A stretch of 64,000 nucleotides of DNA. It comes from Dehalococcoidia bacterium. GTDB taxonomy: Bacteria > Chloroflexota > Dehalococcoidia > Tepidiformales > Tepidiformaceae. The stretch covers positions 1 through 64,000 of the forward strand of contig JAGQHB010000029.1 of NCBI GenBank assembly GCA_020432045.1, in the 5' to 3' direction. The translations under genes were made by a program, and so were the position numbers. The notes beneath the pieces are model-generated. The model was not told the origin of the DNA and did no database searches. It saw only the letters and a program-made list of their open reading frames with translations. Numbering within the stretch: position 1 is the stretch's first letter; every line of letters begins with the position of its first letter. Positions 55,126-57,313 of this stretch are shown here, one piece after another.

Positions 55126-55665
55126 CTATTCCTGCGGGTCGATAATAACCGTCGACGAGAGATGTTCGCCCGTGACATCGCCAATGATCACTTCCACCGT
55201 GACCGTCGCTGGCACACCGGCGGCGTCCGTCGCGCCCGTCCGGCGCAGGACGACAAGCCACACAGCCTCGGCGAGGTTGCTACGCTCATAGGCAGAGCCG
55301 GAATACGCCGAGCGGACGATCCGGTCGGTGCCATCCCGAGCCGCGGGGACGAACTGGACATCGATGATGTCGAGGTCGGGCGCCGCCAGCGCACTTCCGT
55401 TCAGCCGCGCGAACGGTTCGCCGGCGGCACGGCCCGGTTCCGGCGAGCTATTCATCCGGTCGAACTGCGCCTGTGCGAATGATGTAGCTGGCCCGGTCAC
55501 GGCCGCTTCCGACGATATCTGTCCGCTTACACGCACGTTTTCGGCGCGTGACCACGCCGGAAGCGACGAGAGTGAATCGGTACCTATCGACACCAGGAGT
55601 GCGACCGCCGGGCTCACCGCAGCGATCGAAAGAACGGGAATCATGCTGCGCCGAAGCTGAATCAC
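55126..55665 (-). CDS. Exported protein of unknown function
   Basis: A 179-aa protein with an N-terminal hydrophobic signal/anchor (RRSMIPVLSIAAVSPAVALL). The rest is beta-rich: AENVRVSGQISSEAA, LAAPDLDIIDVQFVPAARDG, NLAEAVWLVVLRRTG, VPATVTVEVIIGDVTG. The GTG start has GGAGGGG about six to eight bases upstream; a Met at codon 8 is an alternative. It is divergent from the archaellin-type gene across 258 bp in which nothing else was recognised. It might be an associated surface or pilin-like component, but no family match is claimed. Confidence 0.7.
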   Translation of the reverse strand: MIQLRRSMIPVLSIAAVSPAVALLVSIGTDSLSSLPAWSRAENVRVSGQISSEAAVTGPATSFAQAQFDRMNSSPEPGRAAGEPFARLNGSALAAPDLDIIDVQFVPAARDGTDRIVRSAYSGSAYERSNLAEAVWLVVLRRTGATDAAGVPATVTVEVIIGDVTGEHLSSTVIIDPQE

Positions 55666-55923: not shown

Positions 55924-56535
55924 ATGCCATCTCCGACGCGCAGTAACGAGCGATACACGCGACTCGACGTCATGCGCGGTGAAGAGGGCATCACAGGCCT
56001 CGAAACCGCGATCATCCTGATCGCCTTCGTGATTGTTGCCAGTTCGTTCGCCTTCATGGTGCTGAGCACCGGGCTCTTCGCTGCTGAACGCGGCAAGCAG
56101 ACGGTGCTCGCGGGGCTCGATCGAGTATCGGGCAACATTGAAGTGCGCGGGTCACTCATCCTCCAGGATGTGGGTTCCGACGGCCTGATCGACAGCACGG
56201 ACCCGGACGTCTTCATCGTCACGCTCAGTACGGCGGCGGGCGGCCGCCCTGTCCTCATCGACCCGGCCGCGACGACCAATACGCTCGTCGTGAACCTTGT
56301 TGATTCGGGGGGACGCGTCGCAGGCCTGAACTACTCGGTCGCCAAGACGCTCGGGGACGCTGACGACCTCCTCGAAACGGGCGAGCTGTTTGAGCTCACG
56401 ATCGCAATGCCAGCCGGGATCACGCTGGATGCGAACGAGGAGTTCTCCCTCGAGCTGATCCCGCAGTCCGGGGGGACGATGGTCCTGAACCGGCTGATGC
56501 CTCCCGGGATCGCAGATGTCATGGACCTGCACTGA
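55924..56535 (+). CDS. Archaellin/flagellin-type (class III signal peptide) protein
   Basis: A 203-aa protein (187 if it starts at the in-frame ATG 55972). It shows the archaellin N-terminus: MRGEEGITGLETAIILIAFV, then IVASSFAFMVLSTGLFAAER and GKQTVLAGLDRVSG. A prepilin-type peptidase would cut after RGEEG, leaving a hydrophobic assembly helix. The C-terminal part is beta-rich with the archaellin-like pattern FELTIAMPAG, EEFSLELIPQSGGTMVLNRL and MPPGI. Archaellins build the archaeal motility filament; homologues occur in some Chloroflexota. No motor genes (flaI/flaJ type) are in this window. No ribosome site precedes either ATG. Confidence 0.82.
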   Translation: MPSPTRSNERYTRLDVMRGEEGITGLETAIILIAFVIVASSFAFMVLSTGLFAAERGKQTVLAGLDRVSGNIEVRGSLILQDVGSDGLIDSTDPDVFIVTLSTAAGGRPVLIDPAATTNTLVVNLVDSGGRVAGLNYSVAKTLGDADDLLETGELFELTIAMPAGITLDANEEFSLELIPQSGGTMVLNRLMPPGIADVMDLH

Positions 56536-56542
56536 ACTGCCC

Positions 56543-57313
56543 TTAGAACGGCAGGATGATGCGCCTGAGCTCCTGGCGGAGCCGCGGGGCTTCCGGCATC
56601 ACCTGCTCGACGAGCTGCCAGAAGGATGCCGAGTGGTTCGGGTGGCGAAGGTGGCAGAGCTCGTGGACCACGACGTAATCCGTGAGATGCGGATGCAGCA
56701 TCGAGAGGCGCCAGTTGAAGCGCAGGACACCCGTTGCGGAGCAGCTACCCCAGCGCCGCTTCTGGTCGCGGACTGACCAGGTGACCGGCGAACGGCCGAC
56801 GACCGGTGTCCAACGAGCGAGTGCGCGGCGCACGAGGAACCGGGTCCTTTGGCGGTACCACAGTGAAATCGCCAATGCGACCACTGCCTCGCCCTCTGAC
56901 CCCGTTTTCCCGATTGGGACATCCACCTGGAGCGATTGCTGGCAGTACCGGGCCGTTGGGTAGCGGATCTGAGCGACGGACACGGTGAGCGCAATATCGC
57001 GGCCGAAGAAAGACAACGAATGGCCCGATTCCAACCGCACGGGTGGCGGGGCGGTATCCAGCCGCGAAGTGATCCAGGCGGCGCGGCGACTGAGTAGCGA
57101 CTCGATGGCGGCCTCGGATGTCGCGGCGGGTGCCCTGACAACGACGGCCCCGGCTTCTATCGAGAGCTGGATAGTCCGTGTGCGCCGGGCACTGCGGACC
57201 ACGGTGTAGGGAACGGTCCTGCCACCGAGTTGGAACCGCCGGGGTTCCCGCACAACTGCTGATTCCGAAGGACGGAGCCCCCTGGCGGGGCCAGCGATTC
57301 GATCGCGACGCAT
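56543..57313 (-). CDS. YgjP-like metallopeptidase (DUF45, SprT-like) protein
   Basis: A 256-aa protein ending 7 bp from the archaellin-type gene, convergent. The C-terminal half has the YgjP/DUF45 zinc site: DQKRRWGSCSATGVLRFNWR, then VVHELCHLRHPNHSASFW (HExxH-like HELCH and a third His). The N-terminal half has RTVPYTVVRSARRTRTIQLS, typical of the family's beta-domain. It is a putative zinc peptidase of unknown target; members often neighbour type I restriction systems, but none is here. Start at 57313 lies eight bases after TACCAT, slightly beyond the leaderless spacing; later GTG codons are possible. Confidence 0.82.
   Translation of the reverse strand: MRRDRIAGPARGLRPSESAVVREPRRFQLGGRTVPYTVVRSARRTRTIQLSIEAGAVVVRAPAATSEAAIESLLSRRAAWITSRLDTAPPPVRLESGHSLSFFGRDIALTVSVAQIRYPTARYCQQSLQVDVPIGKTGSEGEAVVALAISLWYRQRTRFLVRRALARWTPVVGRSPVTWSVRDQKRRWGSCSATGVLRFNWRLSMLHPHLTDYVVVHELCHLRHPNHSASFWQLVEQVMPEAPRLRQELRRIILPF

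Follow-up and report, generated by a model that had tools for sequence, protein, structure and literature searches.

A dispersed archaellin gene in a bacterium of the family Tepidiformaceae (Chloroflexota) with a predicted archaellum cluster

Bacterial archaella are a recent discovery. In the archaellum of Litorilinea aerophila, the archaellin ArlB carries four metal ligands, D121, D127, E131, and E134, and both a gene order designated arl2, in which arlG precedes arlF, and a peptidase encoded outside the archaellum locus are known from Chloroflexota (PMC12488501). Archaella and flagella are reported to be mutually exclusive in this phylum, and the archaellum was perhaps gained after flagellar loss (PMC12488501). 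‘Candidatus Lucifugimonas marina’, a member of SAR202, carries six tandem flaB genes in its archaellum cluster and six scattered ones (PMC10444878). Among archaea, Haloarcula marismortui possesses salt-dependent archaellin ecoparalogues (PMC6528647), divergent archaellin pairs are stabilising in Halorubrum (PMC7349177), and archaellin subunits alternate in Methanocaldococcus villosus (PMC8821640). These multiple archaellins provide a functional model for the gene described here, with the difference that they were experimentally tested, in archaea, whereas the present case consists of genes alone. The gene belongs to a member of the Tepidiformales, an order of Dehalococcoidia with a single, often flagellated family, Tepidiformaceae (PMC10284905).

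The gene occupies positions 55924–56535 on the forward strand of the window, that is, the whole 64,000-nucleotide stretch of DNA analysed here, which is part of a contig of 137,245 bases (C89) in a genome of 3.48 Mb (115 contigs, 96.9% complete, 3.7% contaminated). The first-pass annotation claimed an archaellin-type gene at this location, and the open reading frame is exactly as given there, intact, encoding a precursor of 203 amino acids without an internal stop. The protein matches Arch_flagellin (PF01917; E-value 6.5e-18, 66 bits against a cut-off of 29.5), with residues 22–188 aligned to positions 1–160 of the 162-position profile, so that the whole domain is covered; the Pfam search detected no other family in this reading frame. 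In NCBIfam, the archaellin/type IV pilin N-terminal domain (TIGR02537) was recognized as well (23.9 against a cut-off of 20), and no further pilin family was found in either database. The start codon is either the ATG at 55924 or codon 17 at 55972, the latter of which would leave a leader of 6 residues.

The N-terminus is that of a predicted class III signal peptide (55924–55989), as the first-pass annotation had read it, with cleavage expected between Gly22 and Ile23, after EEG. In the alignment, the cleavage region EEG/ITGLETAII coincides with the mature start of L. aerophila ArlB (9i5h), which begins with the equivalent Ile. A hydrophobic helix, in which Glu takes position 5 of the mature protein, comes after the predicted signal peptide (EEG/ITGLETAIILIAFV). 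Across 32 aligned sequences, G22 and the uninterrupted stretch T24, G25, L26, E27, T28, A29, and I30 are invariant, E27 being the mature Glu5. Because this motif recurs, with the same length, in two further archaellins of the same genome and in dozens of archaellins of the class, it is not a chance resemblance.

An AlphaFold2 model built from the 32 aligned sequences (pLDDT 88.2) consists of a long helix and a beta-sandwich head. The N-terminal filament-core helix, residues 23–68, is encoded at 55990–56127 (DSSP assigns helix to residues 25–68 of the model), and the head domain, delineated by the model strands and by Foldseek matches to archaellins, at 56128–56532. A Foldseek search with this model retrieved 17 PDB chains at E < 1e-3, every one an archaellin; the best solved fold match, 9i5h, is also the nearest known structure by sequence (E-value 1.9e-31), at ~39% identity in the structural alignment. 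A metal-site motif, D145-x-D147-x3-E151-x2-E154 (56356–56385), aligns with the four ligands of L. aerophila ArlB in the order D121, D127, E131, and E134, with D145 placed across a gap, which suggests that the window archaellin may bind metal. By these sequence and model criteria, the product is a genuine archaellin with a bacterial host: the PF01917 match and the restriction of the fold matches to archaella bear out the earlier identification, as does a lepA gene 5.5 kb away whose product falls within the bacterial family.

The genes on either side show no evident tie to the filament. The divergent neighbour (55126–55665, reverse strand) encodes an exported protein of 179 amino acids that matched no Pfam or NCBIfam family and had no relatives in the loci that we fetched. 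Such a protein was correctly noted beside the archaellin at first pass, and a candidate role for it as a part of the filament system was dropped on these grounds. The convergent neighbour (56543–57313, reverse strand), which lies outside the system, encodes a metallopeptidase-like protein with a HELCH motif (YgjP-like) and has homologues in 18 of 38 relatives. The archaellin gene is not located in a pilus cluster. In 11 genomes of the family, the surroundings of lepA contain none of the window genes that flank the archaellin, so that its insertion cannot be dated by synteny.

The first-pass annotation described the archaellin as lacking motor or assembly genes, which holds for the window but not for the genome, where a complete archaellum cluster is predicted on another contig, C44. 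The order of genes in this cluster is two arlB, a gene of 244 amino acids, arlG-like, arlF-like, arlH, arlI, arlJ, and a gene for a LysM protein. The ArlI ATPase (NF058587, 659.8 bits against a cut-off of 550) and ArlH (NF052589, 222.1 against 215) are recognized above the model cut-offs; ArlJ matches NF004703 with an E-value of 1.4e-123 over residues 23–522, at 413 bits, below the cut-off of 570. Matches to ArlG (E-value 2.1e-11) and ArlF (0.003) are both sub-cut-off and were assigned partly by their location before arlH, with arlG preceding arlF as in the arl2 arrangement, whereas the 244-amino-acid gene, which matched no family, was assigned to arlCDE by position alone. Only two T2SSE ATPases were found in the genome: one is ArlI, and the other is encoded in a Tad-like cluster on contig C2. 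The sole prepilin peptidase above the cut-off (Peptidase_A24, PF01478; 53.4 bits against 26.5) adjoins this Tad-pilus cluster and may act on the archaellins. Along with the archaellin family, the predicted cleavage before Ile, and the metal-site residues, the genome has in common with L. aerophila the arl2-type order, here of the arlG-like and arlF-like genes, a LysM gene after the cluster, and a peptidase outside it; unlike in L. aerophila, one archaellin gene is far from the cluster. Since the dispersed gene is at least 55 kb from both ends of its contig, it is not adjacent to the C44 cluster.

Several other genes of this genome deserve mention. The gene for the LysM-domain protein lies immediately 3′ of arlJ (L007:18758-19900, on C44), and soon after it there is a gene for an M23-like peptidase-type protein (L008:622-1323, on C44; the M23 reading comes from sequence only); the two products could possibly anchor the archaellum machine in the wall. 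On contig C23, between genes for an HtrA-like protease and a sirtuin, we found an archaellin-like protein (L009:7805-8749, reverse strand) that scores at the PF01917 cut-off and is 32% identical to the dispersed archaellin. Its mature start, TVTAIVLTC, lacks Glu5, a residue that all of the aligned archaellins share. The protein may be a minor subunit with a specialised role, or else its gene may be a copy in decay.

The closest relatives of the dispersed archaellin are the two operon archaellins of C44, with 73% and 75% identity, the next best among 84,980 genomes being 58% identical, at the sensitivity of that scan. In the maximum-likelihood tree, which we rebuilt without long-branch sequences, including the divergent C23 protein, that distorted the first tree, the three archaellins of this genome are monophyletic (support 100/100), and the nearest outside clade consists of the archaellins of MAG B103T1B8 (99/97). 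That genome (L018/G038) is alike in having operon archaellins on one contig and isolated copies on two others, but these differ from the window archaellin in identity (58%) and in neighbour genes. The arrangement in ‘Candidatus Lucifugimonas marina’ is the same in kind but occurs in another, marine lineage of the class.

Within the trio, the dispersed copy is the most divergent, with a branch of 0.26 compared to 0.02–0.07 for the operon copies and a core-helix identity of 84% against 98% between the operon copies. Pairwise comparison with the operon copies gave dN/dS of 0.11–0.12 at dS of ~1.4–1.5, figures that are rough given that dS is nearly saturated, whereas dS between the two operon copies is 0.40; hence, the dispersed copy split off before the tandem pair arose, unless homogenisation has kept the two operon copies alike. 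The low ratio indicates that the dispersed gene is kept under purifying selection, as expected of a maintained gene, with the caveat that pairwise estimates can take in constraint predating the split or acting on the other copy.

Both operon archaellin genes are preceded by a leader of 178 nucleotides, ~80% alike between the two (L007:11110-11290 and L007:12153-12332, on C44), with the core GGTGGGCAAACCGGA..GGCCGAGATGGCC. A search of the genome yielded no copies beyond these two sites, the remainder being at chance level, and a comparison with Rfam detected no known riboswitch in the archaellin leaders. This element could be either a remnant of the tandem duplication or a regulatory leader. 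It is missing upstream of the dispersed gene, which suggests separate control of the latter.

We consider it probable that the dispersed gene is an arlB paralogue whose product joins the C44-encoded archaellum as an additional archaellin. This interpretation builds on the gene itself, its family, its paralogy, the purifying selection, and the core machinery genes (several of them placed by position), all of which are observed, and the retention of the core helix, Glu5, and the metal-site motif along with a complete C44 cluster supports it. The precursor would be inserted in the membrane, its class III signal peptide would be cut after Gly22 by the C2 prepilin peptidase, and the mature subunit would then be extracted and polymerised by ArlI and ArlJ into a filament together with both operon archaellins. 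The product might be a minor subunit of this filament, alternate with the other archaellins, or be used only under certain conditions.

The chief rival to the extra-subunit interpretation is that of a maintained but scarcely expressed duplicate, which was copied without the leader, is largely silent, with little or no expression ever, and adds nothing measurable. The lack of the operon leader and of a sigma-70-like promoter upstream implies that the gene could indeed be little expressed; its ribosome-binding signal is weak and at a suboptimal distance, and its branch is longer. The promoter scan, however, was limited to sigma-70 sites, and an intact reading frame that, after a divergence of dS ~1.4–1.5, retains dN/dS of ~0.11, a value that bespeaks long-term purifying selection within the limits of pairwise estimates, together with Glu5, the metal-site motif, and the C-terminus, makes a silent duplicate rather unlikely.

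The possibility that the window or C44 is a contaminant of the bin, such that the archaellum is foreign to the family, comes to mind given the metagenome-like assembly with its 3.67% contamination and an archaellum that is unique among the 38 genomes of the family. For the window contig C89, to which the LepA marker applies, LepA is 75–85% identical to homologues from the family and at most 69% to others, and the LepA tree places this genome inside the family (100/100); C44 is tied to C89 by the 73–75% identity of the archaellins and by a tetranucleotide correlation of 0.96. We accordingly regard contamination as very improbable. Similarly improbable is that the dispersed gene encodes a pilin for the C2 Tad system or for a separate adhesive pilus: the genome does have a second type II/IV secretion ATPase in a Tad cluster adjoined by the prepilin peptidase, but PF01917 is the only Pfam match of the protein, its solved-structure matches at E < 1e-4 are archaellins alone, and it is 73–75% identical to archaellins encoded directly 5′ of arlG-F-H-I-J. 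Matches to archaellins rather than to bacterial pilins, in a genome that encodes ArlI, leave the initial assignment unrefuted.

Archaellin genes away from the cluster are frequent throughout the class. Among 393 class genomes, PF01917 matches were detected in 70 and ArlJ in 55. Of the 48 genomes that have ArlJ as well as an archaellin among the matches listed, at least 6 have an archaellin gene that shares a contig with arlJ but is separated from it by more than 14 kb; these include three single-contig assemblies (G182, G202, and G216). In at least 26 of the 48, an archaellin gene is on a contig other than that of arlJ, a count that fragmented assemblies may inflate, and in 16, every archaellin among the matches listed is near arlJ. 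The isolated archaellins of G216:C1, G182:C1, and G202:C1 are hundreds of kilobases from arlJ, with no assembly gaps, which makes these three genomes useful for the study of dispersed archaellins. Archaella in Chloroflexota, to which the first-pass annotation alluded, had already been published (PMC12488501), as had scattered flaB in SAR202, and the window gene is a further example. The dispersed gene shows that, in bacteria as in some archaea, archaellin families also grow beyond the operon; whether bacterial archaella are built of several subunits thereby becomes a question that can be put to the test.

Within the family, the presence of an archaellum was less expected because most of the other members carry bacterial flagellum genes. 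Among the 38 genomes of the family, which are also those of the order, an archaellin was found only in the window genome, and ArlJ, too, was confined to it among the family members sampled in the class search. FlhA, the flagellar export protein, was detected in 22 of the 38 but not in the window genome, FlhA being the sole flagellar marker searched. In the LepA tree, the window genome belongs to a subgroup (87/84) in which most of the 16 genomes are positive for FlhA, and the FlhA-negative genomes G016, G029, and G035 lie apart from this subgroup. The contrast fits the mutual exclusivity of archaella and flagella, on the basis of FlhA alone, an unclosed genome, and one modestly supported LepA marker. 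The pattern is consistent with replacement of the flagellum by the archaellum inside one family. We put at about even the chances of the fuller scenario, under which this lineage lost an ancestral flagellum, gained a complete archaellum, and then spread archaellins over the chromosome. If true, this would be a recent exchange, at the level of a family, between two unrelated rotary machines for motility, in which the order of flagellum loss and archaellum gain could be worked out. A single archaellated member among many flagellated kin offers a compact test case for the view that the two machines are mutually exclusive and that the archaellum is acquired after the loss of the flagellum.
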